Shown here piece by piece: positions 45,986 to 53,320 of a stretch of DNA of 64,000 nucleotides (position 1 is the stretch's first letter; every line of letters starts with the position of its first letter). Position numbers and translations under genes: made by a program. Below the pieces are notes generated by a model. The model saw only the letters and a program-made list of their open reading frames with translations, ran no database searches and had not been told where the DNA came from. The DNA is from Asticcacaulis aquaticus (GTDB lineage: Bacteria; Pseudomonadota; Alphaproteobacteria; Caulobacterales; Caulobacteraceae), in assembly GCF_028550415.1 (NCBI RefSeq), contig NZ_JAQQKX010000002.1, positions 186,001 through 250,000 of the forward strand, given 5' to 3'.

Positions 45986-46291
45986 ATGACCGACACATCG
46001 CCCGAGAGATACGCCGCCGACGAGGCCGAACTGGTGAAAGCCCTGCTGACGCTGGAAACGGCCGAAGAGATGCGCGCCTTTCTCGACGACCTGTGCACCC
46101 CGTCGGAACTGAGGGCCTTTGCCGAACGGTTCAAGGTGGCGCGGCTGCTGGACGAAAACCAGTTGTCCTACCGTGACATCTCCGAAAAGACCGGGGCCTC
46201 GACCACCACGGTGACCCGCGTGGCGCGTTTCCTGCGCGACATGCCGCATAAGGGTTACCGACTGGTGATCGACCGCCTCAAAAGCCAATAA
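45986..46291 (+). CDS. TrpR-related YerC/YecD-family regulator, probable his operon repressor
   Basis: The 101-residue protein has the TrpR-like helical core AELVKALLTLETAEEMRAFLDDLCTPSELRAFAERFKVARLLDENQLSYRDISEKTGASTTTVTRVARFLRD, with a helix-turn-helix (YRDISEKTGASTTTVTRVARF). Members of this family have been proposed as histidine repressors (HisR) in Gram-positive bacteria. Here the gene is first in the his operon, 12 bases before hisG, with a palindrome just upstream, so regulation of histidine synthesis with histidine as co-repressor is a fair inference. Confidence 0.85.
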   Translation: MTDTSPERYAADEAELVKALLTLETAEEMRAFLDDLCTPSELRAFAERFKVARLLDENQLSYRDISEKTGASTTTVTRVARFLRDMPHKGYRLVIDRLKSQ

Positions 46292-46303: not shown

Positions 46304-47182
46304 ATGACTTCCCGTCTCCGCATTGCCGTTCAGAAATCGGGCCGACTGGCCGACCGCTCGCTGGAACTGATCTCCGGCGCGGGCCTGCGCGTCATGAAGG
46401 GCGCCAACGAACTGCTCTATCGCATCGAGAACCAGCCGATCGACCTGCTGCGCGTGCGCGACGACGACATCCCGACCTTCGTCGCCGATGGCGTGGCCGA
46501 ACTGGGCATCGTCGGTTACAACGTGCTGGCCGAACACTTCCCTGAAGACGACCTCGAAGAGCGCATCGTCATGCGCCTCGGTTTCGGCAAGTGCACGCTG
46601 AAAATCGCCGTGCCGGACACCGCCACTTATGAAGGCCCGCAAAGCCTCGAAGGCAAGCGCATCGCCACGTCTTATCCGAACATCCTCGGCAAGTGGCTGA
46701 AAGACAAGGGCGTCACCGCGACCATCGTCGAGATGCGTGGTGCGGTCGAGGTCGCGCCCCGCATGAAGATTGCCCACGCCATCTGCGATCTGGTCTCGAC
46801 GGGTGCGACGCTGGAAGCCAATGGCATGAAGGCCGTCGATCTGGTGCTGGCCTCCGAAGCCGTGCTAATCAAGGCGCCGCATGCGCCGCCCGCCGATCTG
46901 GAACACGTCTATGACATGCTGCTGCGCCGTTTCGACGGGGTGACGGCCTCGACGGGGGCCAAGTACGTCATGCTCAACGCCCCGCGCGAGCATCTGGACG
47001 AGATCATCGAGCTGATCCCCGGCGCCGATTCCCCGACCATCATGCCGCTGGCACACCGCGAAGACACGGTCGCCGTCCATGCGGTGTGTCAGGAAAACGT
47101 GTTCTGGGACACGCTGGACAAGCTCAAGGCGGCAGGCGCTTCGGCGATCCTGGTCCTGCCGATCGAAAAGATGATGAAGTAG
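46304..47182 (+). CDS. hisG: ATP phosphoribosyltransferase (long form)
   Basis: HisG joins ATP and PRPP, the first committed step of histidine synthesis, and is feedback-inhibited by histidine. The 292-residue protein is the long, hexameric form: catalytic part with LRIAVQKSGRLADRSLELISGAG, DDIPTFVADGVAELGIVGYNVLAE and the PRPP loop ICDLVSTGATLEANGMK, then a C-terminal regulatory ACT-like domain (SPTIMPLAHREDTVAVHAVCQ). It needs no HisZ. It follows the regulator by 12 bases. Confidence 0.96.
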   Translation: MTSRLRIAVQKSGRLADRSLELISGAGLRVMKGANELLYRIENQPIDLLRVRDDDIPTFVADGVAELGIVGYNVLAEHFPEDDLEERIVMRLGFGKCTLKIAVPDTATYEGPQSLEGKRIATSYPNILGKWLKDKGVTATIVEMRGAVEVAPRMKIAHAICDLVSTGATLEANGMKAVDLVLASEAVLIKAPHAPPADLEHVYDMLLRRFDGVTASTGAKYVMLNAPREHLDEIIELIPGADSPTIMPLAHREDTVAVHAVCQENVFWDTLDKLKAAGASAILVLPIEKMMK

Positions 47183-47235: not shown

Positions 47236-48534
47236 ATGAAGACCTTTATCTGGAACGATCTCAGCGCGGCGGAACGCAAGACCGCGCTCGCGCGCCCCGA
47301 AAACCGGCGCGACGAGAGCGTGCTCGACACTGTGCGCACGATCTTCGACGACGTGGAATCGCGCGGCTTCACCGCCGTCAGCGACTGGGCCGTGCGTCTG
47401 GACGGTCACGCCCCGGTGCGCGTCGAGTTGAACCCGTCGCTGGTCGATGAGGCCCGTGCGCTCCTCACCGCCGACGATCTCGAAGCCATGGAACTGGCCG
47501 TCGAACACGTCCGCGCCTTCCACGCCGCCGAACTGCCCACCACAGGCCCCGTCATCGCGCCCGCCGAAGGCCTGAGCCTGCAACGCGTTTTCCGCCCGAT
47601 CTCGACCGCCGGTCTCTACGTCCCCGGCGGCACTGCGCCGCTGTTTTCGACCCTGATCATGACCGCCGTTCCGGCCCTCGTCGCCGGTGTGCCTAACCGA
47701 GTCTGCGTCACCCCGCCTGCCAAGGACGGCTCGCTGCACCCGATGATGATTGCCGCCGGGGCCGCGGCCGGGCTCGACGCTATCTGGCGCGTCGGTGGGG
47801 CGCATGCCATTGCGGCCATGGCCTTGGGCGCCCTACCCGACGTTCCGGCGGCCGACAAGCTGTTCGGGCCGGGTAACAAGTACGTCGCCGAAGCCAAGCG
47901 CTACGCCACCGAGCGCCTGTCGGGCATTGCCATCGACATGCCCGCCGGGCCGTCCGAACTGATGGTCATCGCCGATGCGACCGCCAATGCGAAACTGATC
48001 GCCGCCGACCTGCTCAGTCAGGCCGAACACGACGCCGACGCGCAGGTCGTGCTGGTGACGCTCGACCGCGACCTGATCGAGGCCGTGGGCGCCGAACTGG
48101 AGGCGCAACTGTCGACCCTGCCGCGCGCGGCGATCGCCCGTGCCTCGCTGGAACAGGCGCGTTTGTTCGTTGTCGACAGCCTTGAGGCTGCCGCCGAAGT
48201 CGCCAATCTCTACGGTCCGGAGCACCTCGCCTTGCAGGTCGAAGACCTCGACGCCCTGATCCCGCAACTGACCGCCGCCGGCACCGTGTTTGCGGGCACC
48301 TATGCGGCGGAAACCTTCGGCGATTACGCCGCCGGCCCCAGCCACGTCCTGCCGACCGACGGCGCAGCGCGGGCCTGGGACGGCATCACTGTGCGGTCGT
48401 ACCTGACCAGCTTCGTCGTTCAGCGCGCCACCCGTCAGGGCGCGGCCACCATTGCGCCCGCCGCCGCCCGTCTGGCTCGCCTCGAAGGTCTCGAAGCGCA
48501 TGCGCTGGCGGCAGACTTCCGTTTAGAGGTGTAA
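47236..48534 (+). CDS. hisD: Histidinol dehydrogenase
   Basis: HisD oxidises histidinol to histidine in two NAD+-dependent steps, the last reactions of the pathway. The 432-residue protein has RVFRPISTAGLYVPGGTAPLFSTLIMTAVPA, IWRVGGAHAIAAMALG, FGPGNKYVAEAKR, the zinc ligand region LLSQAEHDADAQVVLVT, and GPSHVLPTDGAAR. ATG 47236 begins at the typical N terminus; the frame runs open upstream in the hisG end. It is followed 2 bases later by the hisC-like/hisB fusion. Confidence 0.97.
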   Translation: MKTFIWNDLSAAERKTALARPENRRDESVLDTVRTIFDDVESRGFTAVSDWAVRLDGHAPVRVELNPSLVDEARALLTADDLEAMELAVEHVRAFHAAELPTTGPVIAPAEGLSLQRVFRPISTAGLYVPGGTAPLFSTLIMTAVPALVAGVPNRVCVTPPAKDGSLHPMMIAAGAAAGLDAIWRVGGAHAIAAMALGALPDVPAADKLFGPGNKYVAEAKRYATERLSGIAIDMPAGPSELMVIADATANAKLIAADLLSQAEHDADAQVVLVTLDRDLIEAVGAELEAQLSTLPRAAIARASLEQARLFVVDSLEAAAEVANLYGPEHLALQVEDLDALIPQLTAAGTVFAGTYAAETFGDYAAGPSHVLPTDGAARAWDGITVRSYLTSFVVQRATRQGAATIAPAAARLARLEGLEAHALAADFRLEV

Positions 48535-48536
48535 CC

Positions 48537-50039
48537 ATGTTCGCGTCCCCTTTCACCGCCCTGAACGCTCAGGGCTCCGGCCTCGAAGCTTCGCCGCCGT
48601 CGTTAGAGCCGTTGCGCGAGCGCATGGCCGAGATCTATGGCGTCGAGCCCTATCAGCTGATGGTCACGCGCGGCGCTTCGCACGGGACCGAGATCCTGAT
48701 GCGCCGCCTCAAGGTCAATGGCTATGAGAACGTCTTCACCAATCCCTGCTATTCCGAGCGGCAATATCACCTGCAAAGCCTCGCCGACGCCTACGGCCTG
48801 ACGCTGAAACAGGCGACCAAGCCGCTGATGACGCTCAAAGGCGCGGGCATGTACCTGATCGATAACCCCAACATGCCCGACGGCAAGGTGTGGGATTTGA
48901 TCGCCGCGCGGACTCTGGCCGTCGAAATCTTCCCGGCCCTGCTGGTCATCGATGAGAGCTATTTCGACGCCTGTGACGGGACAAGCCTCGTAGAACTCAC
49001 CAAATCCGAGTCGAACGTCGTGGTCCTCAAAAGCCTGTCGTTCCTCTACGGCCTGTCGGGGGCGCGCGTCGGCGCGCTGATCTCGTCGCCCAAAACGCTC
49101 AACGGTCTCAGCCGCTTCTGCGAGCCCACCCCCTTGCCGACGCCCTCGATCAAGGCCGCCGAAGCCGCCCTGGCCCCGTCGCGCGCCCTGAACGTGCAGT
49201 CGCGCATCGACCTGATCCGTGGAGAGCAGGCCCGGGTGCGCGAGGCCCTGACCGACGCGCCGTCGACCCTGCAATTTCACCTCGCGGACGGGCCGTTCCT
49301 GTTCATCAAGCCGAAGGACCTGATCCGCACCCAGACCGCGCTCAAGCGTTTCGGCGTGGTGGCCAAGAACGCCTATGAAGGCCTGATCATGGCCATCGGC
49401 GACAAACCGTATAACGACCGCCTGCTCAACGCTCTGGGCGTCGCGACCGATGCCGGTCGCCCGGCGCGCCGCGGCGAAACCCTGCGCGACACCAAGGAAA
49501 CCAAGATTTCGGCCATCGTCGATCTCGATAATCCGAAGCCTGTGAAAATCCACACCGGGGTCGGCTTCTTCGATCACATGCTCGATCAGGTCGCCACCCA
49601 CGGCGGTTTCTCGCTGCAATTGTCGTGCGAAGGCGATCTGGAAATCGACGCCCACCACACGATCGAGGACTGCATGCTGGCCTTCGGTGCGGCGTTGAAA
49701 AGCGCTTTGGGCGACCGTATCGGTATGGCGCGCTTCGGCTTCGTCCTGCCGATGGATGAAACCGAAGCGAAGGTCAGCGTCGATATTTCCGGCCGCGCCT
49801 ACTGCGTGTTCAAGGGCGAGTTCGATGCCTCGCACATCGGCGACTACCCGACCGAAATGACCGGTCACGCTTTCCGCTCGCTGTCCGAAGCCCTGGGGGC
49901 CTCGATCCATATCGAGGTCACCGGCGAAAACGACCACCACAAGGTCGAGGCCTGTTTCAAGGCTTTGGGCCGCGCGCTGCGCATAGCCACGCGCATCGAA
50001 GGCGACGCTTTGCCCTCGACCAAGGGGATGTTAGCGTGA
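48537..50039 (+). CDS. hisB: HisC-like domain fused to imidazoleglycerol-phosphate dehydratase (HisB)
   Basis: The 500-residue product has two parts. Residues 1-305 resemble a HisC-type PLP aminotransferase: RGASHGTEILMRR (45-57), IDNPNMPDG (108-116), VIDESYFDA (137-145), and LKSLSFLYGLSGARVG (164-179). At residue 169, where aminotransferases have the Lys that binds PLP (TLSKxxGLAGxRxG), this protein has Phe, so the domain is probably not a working transaminase. Residues 310-500 are a complete HisB dehydratase (GFFDHMLDQ, DAHHTIED, ENDHHKVEA), step 7 of histidine synthesis. The phosphatase domain fused to HisB in E. coli is absent. It overlaps hisH by 4 bases. Confidence 0.88.
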   Translation: MFASPFTALNAQGSGLEASPPSLEPLRERMAEIYGVEPYQLMVTRGASHGTEILMRRLKVNGYENVFTNPCYSERQYHLQSLADAYGLTLKQATKPLMTLKGAGMYLIDNPNMPDGKVWDLIAARTLAVEIFPALLVIDESYFDACDGTSLVELTKSESNVVVLKSLSFLYGLSGARVGALISSPKTLNGLSRFCEPTPLPTPSIKAAEAALAPSRALNVQSRIDLIRGEQARVREALTDAPSTLQFHLADGPFLFIKPKDLIRTQTALKRFGVVAKNAYEGLIMAIGDKPYNDRLLNALGVATDAGRPARRGETLRDTKETKISAIVDLDNPKPVKIHTGVGFFDHMLDQVATHGGFSLQLSCEGDLEIDAHHTIEDCMLAFGAALKSALGDRIGMARFGFVLPMDETEAKVSVDISGRAYCVFKGEFDASHIGDYPTEMTGHAFRSLSEALGASIHIEVTGENDHHKVEACFKALGRALRIATRIEGDALPSTKGMLA

Positions 50040-50629
50040 GTAAAGTCGCCGTTATCGAAATCGGTTGCGCCAATACGGCATCGGTTCTGTTCGCGCTGGA
50101 ACGTCTGGGCGCGGAAGCCGTGCTGTCGTCCGACGCCAATGAAATCGCCGCCGCCGAGCGCGTGGTGTTACCGGGCGTCGGCGCGGCGGGCTTCGCCATG
50201 AGCCGCATCCGTGAGCTTGGCCTCTACGATACGATCCGTGCGTTGACACAGCCGCTGCTTGGCGTCTGTCTGGGCCAGCAACTGCTGTTCGACTCGTCCG
50301 AAGAGGGCGATGTCGATTGCCTCGGCCTGATCCCCGGCAAAGTCGTGAAGATGGACGCGCCCAAGCCTCTGGTCGTGCCGCATATGGGCTGGAACCAGCT
50401 GGAGGCCGTCGCCGACGACCCGCTGACGGCAGGGCTGAACGCGGGTGACTACGCCTATTTCGTGCACAGCTTCGTCTGTCCGGTGACCGAACACACATTG
50501 GTGCAATCGACCTATGGTCACCCGTTCGCGGCCATGGTGCGCAAGGACAATGTCTGGGGGTGTCAGTTCCACCCGGAGCGCTCGTCCGCCGCCGGTGCGA
50601 AAATACTGGAGAATTTTCTCCGCATATAA
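50036..50629 (+). CDS. hisH: Imidazole glycerol phosphate synthase, glutaminase subunit
   Basis: HisH releases ammonia from glutamine for HisF. The 197-residue class I amidotransferase has the nucleophile Cys in LLGVCLGQQLLFDSS, and His and Glu in WGCQFHPERSS. The oxyanion strand is LPGVGAAGFAM. It starts with GTG inside the hisB stop (GTGA overlap), so it is coupled to it. A family A repeat follows before hisA. Confidence 0.96.
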   Translation: MSKVAVIEIGCANTASVLFALERLGAEAVLSSDANEIAAAERVVLPGVGAAGFAMSRIRELGLYDTIRALTQPLLGVCLGQQLLFDSSEEGDVDCLGLIPGKVVKMDAPKPLVVPHMGWNQLEAVADDPLTAGLNAGDYAYFVHSFVCPVTEHTLVQSTYGHPFAAMVRKDNVWGCQFHPERSSAAGAKILENFLRI

Positions 50630-50759: not shown

Positions 50760-51491
50760 ATGATCCTCTACCCCGCCATCGACCTGATCAACGGAGAATG
50801 CGTCCGCCTCGCGCAGGGCCGTTTCGACGCCGTGACGAAATACGACTCCGATCCGTTCAAGCGCCTCAGCCTGTTCAATGACGAATTTGCCCAGTGGGTG
50901 CATATCGTCGATCTCGACGGGGCCAAGGCCGGTTCACCACAGCAGCACGAACTGATCGGCCGTCTGGCGCAGGCCTCGCGCGCCAAGATCCAGACCGGCG
51001 GCGGCGTGCGTACCCGCGAGCACGTACAAACCCTGCTCGCTCAGGGCGTCTCGGCCGTCGTGGTCGGCTCCGCTGCCGTCAAGAACCCCGAAGAGGTGCG
51101 CGGCTGGCTGCGCGACTTCGGCAAGGACAAGATCACGCTGGCGCTGGACGTCCTGCCGACCAAAGACGGCGATTTCGACGCCGCCCTGCACGGCTGGGTC
51201 GAAGGCTCCGGGATTTCGTTGTGGGACGTGCTTGACTACTATCCGGTCGGCGTGGCGCAGCGTATCCTCGTCACGGACGTGTCGCGCGACGGCATGCTGA
51301 TGGGGCCGAACATGGACCTGATGCGCGCCCTGCGCCAGAAGCGTCCGGACCTTGAAATTCAGGCCTCGGGCGGTGTGAAGTCGATCGAAGACCTGTACGA
51401 TCTGAAGGCGCTCGGCGTCCACGGCGCCATCGTCGGCAAGGCGATCTACGAAGGCCTGATCGACCTCAAAGCCGCTTTGAACGTAGGATAG
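50760..51491 (+). CDS. hisA: ProFAR isomerase
   Basis: HisA isomerises the aminoaldose ProFAR to the ketose PRFAR. The 243-residue TIM barrel has YPAIDLINGECVRLAQG, VHIVDLDGAKAG, IQTGGGVRT, VVVGSAAVKNPEEV and ASGGVKSIEDLYDLK, with the catalytic Asp of strand 1 and of ILVTDVSRDG. It starts 10 bases after a family A repeat and runs 3 bases short of hisF. Confidence 0.97.
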   Translation: MILYPAIDLINGECVRLAQGRFDAVTKYDSDPFKRLSLFNDEFAQWVHIVDLDGAKAGSPQQHELIGRLAQASRAKIQTGGGVRTREHVQTLLAQGVSAVVVGSAAVKNPEEVRGWLRDFGKDKITLALDVLPTKDGDFDAALHGWVEGSGISLWDVLDYYPVGVAQRILVTDVSRDGMLMGPNMDLMRALRQKRPDLEIQASGGVKSIEDLYDLKALGVHGAIVGKAIYEGLIDLKAALNVG

Positions 51492-51494
51492 ACC

Positions 51495-52262
51495 ATGCTC
51501 GCCAGACGCATCATTCCCTGTCTCGACGTCAAGGACGGCAAGGTCGTCAAGGGCGTGCAGTTCGTCGGTCACGAAGTGCTGGGCGACGCCGTCGACATGG
51601 CGCTCCGCTACCGTGACGAAGGTGCCGACGAGCTGGTCCTGTACGACATCACCGCCTCAGCGGAAGGCCGCACGGTCGATTACAACTGGGTGCGCGACAT
51701 CGCCCGCGCCCTCGATATTCCGTTCTGCGTGGCCGGCGGCATCCGTTCCGGCGAACAGGCGGTCAAATGCCTCAATTCGGGCGCTGACAAGGTGTCGATC
51801 AACTCGCCGGCGCTGGAACGTCCCGACCTGATCAACGAACTGGCCGAAATGGCCGGATCGCAGTGCGTGGTCGTCGGGGTCGATTCGCGCGAACTGGACG
51901 GGGACTATTATGTTCATCAGTACAGTGGCGATCCGGACAAGATCCGCGCCGCCGGTCGCCGGACGCTCGACTGGGTGGTCGAAGCCCGCGACCGCGGGGC
52001 GGGTGAAATCGTGCTCAACTGCATGAATCAGGACGGCGTGCGCAAGGGCTACGATATCCGGCAACTGAAGCTGGTGCGCGACCTGATCGACATTCCGCTG
52101 GTCGCCTCAGGCGGCGCAGGCGCGGTCGAGCATTTCACCGAGGTCTTCGAGCAGGCCGACGTATCGGGGGCTCTGGCCGCCAGCGTCTTCCACAAGAAGA
52201 TCATCCATATCCCCGACCTGAAACGCGACCTGCAAACGGCGGGAATCGCGGTTAGACTGTAA
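51495..52262 (+). CDS. hisF: Imidazole glycerol phosphate synthase, cyclase subunit
   Basis: HisF closes the imidazole ring with ammonia from HisH, giving imidazole glycerol phosphate and AICAR. The 255-residue TIM barrel has [63 protein letters not shown] and [13 protein letters not shown]. The catalytic Asp residues lie in CLDVKDG and in the NCMNQDG strand end. It is followed by a large inverted repeat before the small membrane gene and hisIE. Confidence 0.97.
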
Positions 52263-52673: not shown

Positions 52674-53320
52674 TGGCCCAATCTCATAAACTGCCCAACC
52701 CCCTCACCCTCGCCGACATCGACGCGCTCGATTTCACCAAGGGCGACGGCCTGATCCCCGCCATCGTGCAGGACGCCGATACGCTTCAGGTCCTGATGCT
52801 GGGTTATATGGACAAGGCCGCCCTGACCGAGACCCTGACCGCGCGTCAGGTGACCTTCTTCTCGCGCTCGAAGGGCGGGCGCTGGCGCAAGGGCGAGACC
52901 TCGGGCGACTTCCTCAATCTCGACCACATCCTGACCGATTGCGACGAAGACGCCCTGCTGGTCATGGCGCGTCCGGTCGGCCCGACCTGCCACACCAAGA
53001 CCACCTCGTGCTTCGGGCATGAAACCGCGCCGGGGATCGGCTTTATGGGCCATCTGGCGCAGGTCGTGAGGGAGCGCGCCAAGGCCCCGCCCGCCGACAG
53101 CTATACCGCGCGCCTGATGCAGAAGGGCGTCGCCAAGATCGCCCAGAAGGTCGGTGAGGAAGGCCTGGAGACCGCGCTGGCCGGTCGCGCGGGCGACCTC
53201 GACGAACTGCATGCCGAAGCGGGCGACCTGCTCTATCACCTGTCGGTGCTGCTGATGGCGCGCGAAACCACGCTGGAAGCCGTACTGGAGGTTTTGCGCG
53301 CGCGTCACGCCGGGCGCTGA
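52673..53320 (+). CDS. hisIE: Bifunctional PR-AMP cyclohydrolase / PR-ATP pyrophosphatase
   Basis: The 215-residue protein does steps 2 and 3 of the pathway. The N-terminal HisI half has LIPAIVQDADTLQVLMLGYMDKAAL, the zinc site in HILTDCDEDALLVMA and GPTCHTKTTSCF; the C-terminal HisE half has SYTARLMQKGVAKIAQKVGEEGLETALA. Fusion order I then E is the usual one. The start ATG 52673 overlaps the upstream small membrane gene by one base. It closes the his operon; no terminator is obvious. Confidence 0.96.
   Translation: MAQSHKLPNPLTLADIDALDFTKGDGLIPAIVQDADTLQVLMLGYMDKAALTETLTARQVTFFSRSKGGRWRKGETSGDFLNLDHILTDCDEDALLVMARPVGPTCHTKTTSCFGHETAPGIGFMGHLAQVVRERAKAPPADSYTARLMQKGVAKIAQKVGEEGLETALAGRAGDLDELHAEAGDLLYHLSVLLMARETTLEAVLEVLRARHAGR

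Follow-up and report, generated by a model that had tools for sequence, protein, structure and literature searches.

A HisC-like domain lacking the catalytic lysine at the head of HisB in Asticcacaulis aquaticus, and the states of fused HisC across its order

The fusion gene and its histidine operon

The window is the whole stretch of DNA analysed, 64,000 nucleotides of Asticcacaulis aquaticus (positions 186,001 to 250,000 of contig NZ_JAQQKX010000002.1), and all features described in it are on the forward strand. A single open reading frame at 48537..50039, encoding 500 amino acids plus the stop, joins a HisC-like domain to HisB, the imidazoleglycerol-phosphate dehydratase; the ORF list and the translation agree with the coordinates and the fusion proposed in the initial annotation. 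Residues 1-305 (48537..49451) are HisC-like, with 58.4 bits to PF00155, 101.3 bits to TIGR01141 and E. coli HisC (1fg3) as the top PDB match. Residues 306-500 (49452..50039) match HisB with 192 bits to PF00475 and carry no phosphatase domain. On the protein, Pfam places Aminotran_1_2 at residues 28-256 and IGPD at residues 340-481.

The neighboring genes were named by eye, hisG from its sequence with no search. The long form of hisG (46304..47182) is followed by hisD (47236..48534, 432 aa with the start taken at MKTFIW), whose stop lies 2 bases from the fusion ATG. On the 3' side, hisH (50036..50629) overlaps the fusion stop, and hisA (50760-51491), hisF (51495-52262) and hisIE (ending at 53320) come after it. 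The order hisG-hisD-[hisC-hisB]-hisH-hisA-hisF-hisIE matches that of E. coli, with hisC and hisB joined in a single frame. Just 5' of hisG is a small ORF (45986-46291) that looks like a TrpR-type (YerC/YecD) protein by eye and is possibly the operon regulator.

We take Lys214 of E. coli HisC to be the PLP lysine, Asn157 the PLP asparagine, and Tyr55, Arg322 and Arg335 the residues holding the substrate. The phmmer alignment with 1fg3 sets 'lkslsflyglsgar' on 'lrtlskafalaglr' without a gap, so that Phe169 (TTC, 49041..49043) falls on Lys214, and MAFFT alignment with E. coli HisC gives the same pairing. The replacement of the PLP lysine by Phe169, which the initial annotation had proposed with the correct codon, is borne out by both alignments. 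That annotation had also named Lys165 as a residue that might turn out to occupy the cofactor site; in the gap-free phmmer alignment Lys165 lies on an arginine of E. coli HisC, off the cofactor site, and no lysine is there. The motifs NPN (110-112), DESY (139-142) and GLSGARVG (172-179), as well as K165 and F169, are at the positions originally listed, but NPN is not the intact landmark it was taken for: the asparagine just before the proline of NPTG (E. coli Asn157) is Met113 (48873..48875).

Further changes from E. coli HisC in the MAFFT alignment are Tyr55 to Ser19, Asp85 to Ser48, Arg322 to Lys277 and Arg335 to Ile284 (49386..49388), and the N-terminal arm of HisC is missing, whereas the equivalents of Asp184, Tyr187, Ser213 and Arg222 are retained. 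The fused domain scores 101.3-102 bits against the HisC model TIGR01141 (cut-off 276.55) and similarly, 103.1 bits, against the CobD model TIGR01140 (cut-off 290.55). An alignment of 21 live fused HisC sequences has 78 columns with conservation of 90% or more, and the window copy matches 40 of them. From these residue losses the aminotransferase half is very probably without transaminase activity, as was originally supposed. The domain would still fold as a HisC-like unit, with an aromatic Phe or Tyr in the old cofactor pocket.

The HisB half looks intact, in keeping with its initial description as complete. It exceeds the cut-offs of NF002111 (236.8 bits, cut-off 231) and PF00475 (cut-off 27); it scores under the cut-offs of the remaining NCBIfam HisB models, and the HisNB model gives 275 bits against a cut-off of 443, matched only over profile positions 161-355. 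The motifs FDHML, HHTIED, MTGHAF and NDHHKVE and the arginine-bearing motifs supply the eight Mn ligands (H347, H373, H374, E377, H444, H467, H468 and E471) and the two phosphate arginines, all placed by motif against a residue list in a passage of PMC10978614 and not by structure alignment. It is predicted to keep dehydratase activity.

HisC acts on the intermediate that follows the HisB step of histidine synthesis. A working HisC was expected elsewhere in the genome, and a separate gene indeed encodes a predicted active HisC of 372 aa with 299.9 bits to TIGR01141 (over the cut-off) and the motifs TFSK, NEN and DEAY; HisN is also over its cut-off. The separate hisC is preceded by a chorismate-mutase-like ORF (L112, 519-1379, + strand, by eye), and this neighbor suggests an aromatic as well as a histidine role for the separate aminotransferase.

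States of the fused domain across the order

Within the genus, a full-length fusion is present in 24 of 25 genomes at 68-100% identity, the sole exception being one genome of 87% completeness (G004) in which no copy was found. The fusion is thus no orphan of one genome, which the initial annotation had asked to be checked. Likewise, a sequencing or assembly error can be dismissed, since 24 independent genomes concur. The lysine column holds Phe in 13 copies and Tyr in 11 and nothing else, so the conservation of Phe, which the initial annotation had proposed to check, holds for an aromatic residue in 24 of 24 copies but for Phe itself in only 13. In most rows the domain is 296-305 aa long from the ATG start, and 97 of its 305 positions are invariant. 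Four genomes of the genus (G002, G009, G013 and G014) carry a second HisC-like gene at 227-232 bits, under the cut-off; it matches residues 101-213 of the dead domain at 37-39% identity, better than the main HisC does.

The survey of the order covered 398 genomes, of which 370 match at E<=1e-20. From a chosen subset of the 370, taken from the higher-scoring matches among those listed, 92 stretches and a filler were fetched. They form a graded series: a live fusion alone, a live fusion with a separate HisC, a dead domain, a remnant of about 200 aa, and HisD-HisB. Live HisC-HisB, with LSK present, occurs in 20 genomes, one copy (G404) being cut by a contig end. The live loci (L026-L029, L130, L160, L163-L165, L167-L177; L032-L034, L037; L257-L264) have no phosphatase domain. 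One of them, L037, is a MAG labelled Bacteroidales with live HisC-HisB on an 11.8-kb contig, which may be misbinned or transferred. In a class-wide sample of 385 genomes searched with a live fused query, there were 11 matches, and all 8 of those outside the order have the lysine.

The dead domain is found in the genus of the window (group g1), in 19 of the 20 fetched members of group g11 (lysine column 18 Leu and 1 Met; G135 is live) and in 10 of g19, 2 of g28 and 3 of g26, where the column holds varied residues or a gap; in g19 the residues are A, L, Y, Q, M and I. In G123 (locus L161) the lysine of the fused HisC is replaced by Ser. The domain is otherwise HisC-like at 178.9 bits, and its contig also encodes a separate HisC; it possibly represents a recent stage of loss.

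Shorter N-terminal parts of about 180-210 aa precede HisB in 13 genomes (L035, which is Woodsholea maritima, L030, L186, L187 and L189-L197). Their last ~100 residues can be aligned, with no more than moderate support, to the C-terminal region of HisC: hhalign gives probabilities of 53% against the end of live HisC, 68% against dead g19, 32% against dead g11 and 6% against dead g1. A phosphatase was considered as the N-terminal part of these relatives of 400-420 aa and was set aside, because the last ~100 residues align best, if moderately, to the HisC end. In other genomes HisC is gone and HisD and HisB form one ORF, at nine g19 loci (L148, L149 and L151-L157), eight g24 loci (L178-L185) and six further loci (L270-L275), with a linker of ~10-30 residues and no HisC between; L150 and L268 resemble them, although an N-run or a contig end interrupts each. 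Among the loci for which upstream sequence was available, none had an untethered HisB of the fused kind. The order also contains a distinct type of HisB in frames of ~200-260 aa.

HisC genes in these genomes were counted with TIGR01141 (E<=1e-45). Among the 19 live-fusion genomes of the order considered (G404 left out), the fused HisC is the sole match in 14, and the other five (G027, G035, G059, G247 and G135) have a separate HisC as well. The fused HisC alone is over the cut-off in all four named genomes examined, a Sphingomonas MAG, Sphingomicrobium nitratireducens and two MAGs. Of 89 genomes in which the fused HisC has died, shrunk or disappeared, 87 have a separate HisC that exceeds the cut-off (24 of g1, 19 of g11, 13 of the 15 of g19, g28 and g26, 18 with HisD-HisB and 13 with the remnant). 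The two exceptions are G118, whose 275.6 bits fall 1 bit short of the cut-off, and G314, a genome of 65% completeness with none.

Two trees were used for the descent of the domain. Eight near-identical same-genus rows, L150 and L188 (the same place as L035) were dropped before the HisB tree. HisD was usable in 100 of 109 rows, and removal of 16 near-copies left 84 rows for HisD+HisB. On that tree the distinction of live from non-live forms takes three changes and HisD-HisB two, giving the HisD-HisB fusion two separate origins. A common lysine loss for all non-live forms, with 61 of the 84 rows as a single clade, is rejected (p-AU 2.8e-6). A single loss for all dead rows of classes f1, f3 and f5, G123 included, is not rejected (p-AU 0.129), and these rows may be one clade.

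In the HisC tree (65 rows) all dead HisC rows form one clade (support 97) with G123 at its base. This clade neighbors live fused HisC, and the separate HisC rows lie elsewhere in a clade of their own (100). The long branches, including a stem of 1.32 for the dead domain of the genus, call for caution. The trees differ in that HisD+HisB joins g1 with g11 (support 85) and the HisC tree joins g11 with g19 (95). By its place in the trees, the dead domain descends from the live HisC-HisB fusion that is still found in relatives.

Selection on the dead domain

We estimated omega with the MGK+F3X4 model in 19 of the 24 genus copies, those whose separate HisC locus was fetched. The dead domain gives 0.086 (0.066-0.100 over 12 codon bootstraps), and the controls from the same 19 genomes give 0.111 for the separate HisC, 0.071 for HisD and 0.061 for HisB. 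Live fused HisC has 0.101, dead g11 0.154 and the dead domains of g19, g28 and g26 0.261. In the 28 of 171 pairs with dS of 0.1-0.8 in all four genes, the median omega is 0.042 for the dead domain, 0.048 for HisB, 0.058 for HisD and 0.062 for the separate HisC; these pairs come from few subclades and are not independent, and dS saturates beyond them. The dead domain of the genus is now under purifying selection like that on working enzymes, as judged from these codon comparisons, although part of the low omega could come only from the need not to misfold. Because the dead part is about as strictly preserved as the working enzymes, it is probably kept for another job.

The rate of change was not uniform. 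Relative to HisB, dN within subclades is 1.88 for the dead domain, 1.97 for the separate HisC and 2.02 for live fused HisC, whereas between subclades it is 2.80 for the dead domain against 1.60 for the separate HisC. The median identity of the dead domain is 61.9% against 83.6% for HisB. This faster change over long distances, together with the long stem, indicates that the constraint was weaker earlier, and we read the pattern as a probable early burst of change followed by constraint. The domain fits the description of a pseudoenzyme, with catalytic residues lost and sequence conserved, with the qualification that its change was faster earlier.

Possible roles of the domain and comparison with known systems

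Our preferred reading, to which we give a probability of roughly 0.6, is that HisC was fused to HisB while active, was later inactivated and was then retained as a non-catalytic module of HisB. The genes would have fused when HisC was still a working enzyme, the fused copy would have lost catalysis after a separate HisC assumed transamination, and HisB would continue its ordinary dehydratase reaction. In the 24-mer that IGPD forms, the N-terminal sheet points to the exterior, as described in a passage of PMC10978614, and an N-terminally fused domain would therefore lie outside the particle. The dead domain would then sit at the N-terminal side of HisB on the exterior of the oligomer, aiding folding, pairing or solubility, and a structural, assembly or stability role at this position is the most likely one. 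In sister lineages without the domain, HisB is still attached to a remnant or to HisD. This attachment is easier to reconcile with a role in tethering or assembly than with catalysis or a ligand-specific function. The same lineages manage without most or all of the domain, so HisB needs none in principle.

A more elaborate version, which we hold only tentatively, is a long-lived pseudoenzyme in which the dead HisC, as the outer module of the HisB oligomer, organizes the end of the histidine pathway. It might pair with itself and in this way link HisB particles, hold the separate HisC or HisD, or sense the intermediate that passes from HisB to HisC, and the relatives would show each step from the live fusion to replacement by HisD. 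The initial annotation had offered a scaffold and a substrate-binding regulatory domain as options, and sequence cannot separate the two.

The third option offered there, a decaying HisC, finds its support in the sister lineages and its difficulty in the genus. As HisC lies upstream of the essential HisB in one frame, a redundant HisC would not be removable by a stop or frameshift. The domain could then only drift, through amino-acid replacements and deletions that keep the frame, without a function of its own beyond not misfolding. The series from live to dead to the ~200-aa remnant to HisD-HisB, the relaxed omega of g11 and of g19, g28 and g26, the mixed lysine-column residues of g19 and the quicker change between subclades of the genus are all in favor. 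In the genus, however, omega at the level of working enzymes disfavors simple continuing decay, and all 24 copies are full length with only Phe or Tyr at the lysine column. We dropped mere drift for the genus on the omega results and kept it for the sister lineages; as an account of the domain as a whole, it is clearly less probable than retention as a module of HisB.

Ligand sensing, by which the old active site would bind imidazole-acetol phosphate (the HisB product) or histidinol phosphate and tune HisB, is doubtful. The ancestor of the domain worked on the next intermediate of the pathway, the window copy keeps the equivalents of Asp184, Tyr187, Ser213 and Arg222, and D139, E140 and S168 are invariant in the 24 genus copies; yet the domain has lost the presumed substrate residues (the equivalents of Tyr55, Arg322 and Arg335) along with the N-terminal arm, an aromatic residue fills the lysine position, and in one copy (L018) the equivalents of Arg222 and Tyr187 are missing as well. 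A transaminase working through another lysine such as K165 is very improbable. K165 and S166 are invariant in the 24 copies, but besides the position of K165 on an E. coli arginine, the live fused HisC of L032 has both that lysine and the catalytic one ('LKTLSK'), the PLP asparagine, the arm and the substrate arginine are gone, and a full HisC is encoded elsewhere.

A single order seems to preserve the full course of a fused domain: live and sole, live and redundant, dead and constrained, reduced, and replaced. This makes it testable whether a jobless catalytic domain in a fusion rots or whether its partner comes to depend on it. The genus suggests dependence of the partner on the dead domain, and the sister lineages suggest rot. 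Histidine synthesis is a textbook case of metabolic gene fusion. In the open-licence literature searched, we found no description of a HisC-HisB or HisD-HisB fusion; 'hisC' does not occur as the start of any word in PMC1963479, a paper on his gene fusions, and the passages covered of PMC8305728 mention no such fusion.

Among the closest known systems is HisC itself, with the same fold family, motif order and descent; the fused domain differs in having no PLP lysine, PLP asparagine or N-terminal arm and in scoring far under the HisC cut-off. HisZ, a histidyl-tRNA synthetase relative kept as a non-catalytic regulatory subunit of ATP phosphoribosyltransferase, is likewise a former enzyme retained non-catalytically in histidine synthesis, but it is a separate subunit of another fold at another step of the pathway. 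In HisNB of E. coli and other gamma-proteobacteria, whose fusion and transfer to other groups are treated in part of PMC1963479, HisB likewise carries a second histidine-pathway domain on its N-terminal side, and the gene belongs to a compact his operon with the same gene order; the domain added there is a phosphatase, whereas the one described here is HisC-like and inactive. LCB1/SPTLC1 of serine palmitoyltransferase, according to a passage of PMC3794620, is related to PLP enzymes, has no PLP lysine and persists as a partner without catalysis, as the dead HisC would. LCB1 pairs with a live paralogue, whereas the dead HisC is joined to an enzyme that is unrelated to it and acts one step upstream in the pathway.
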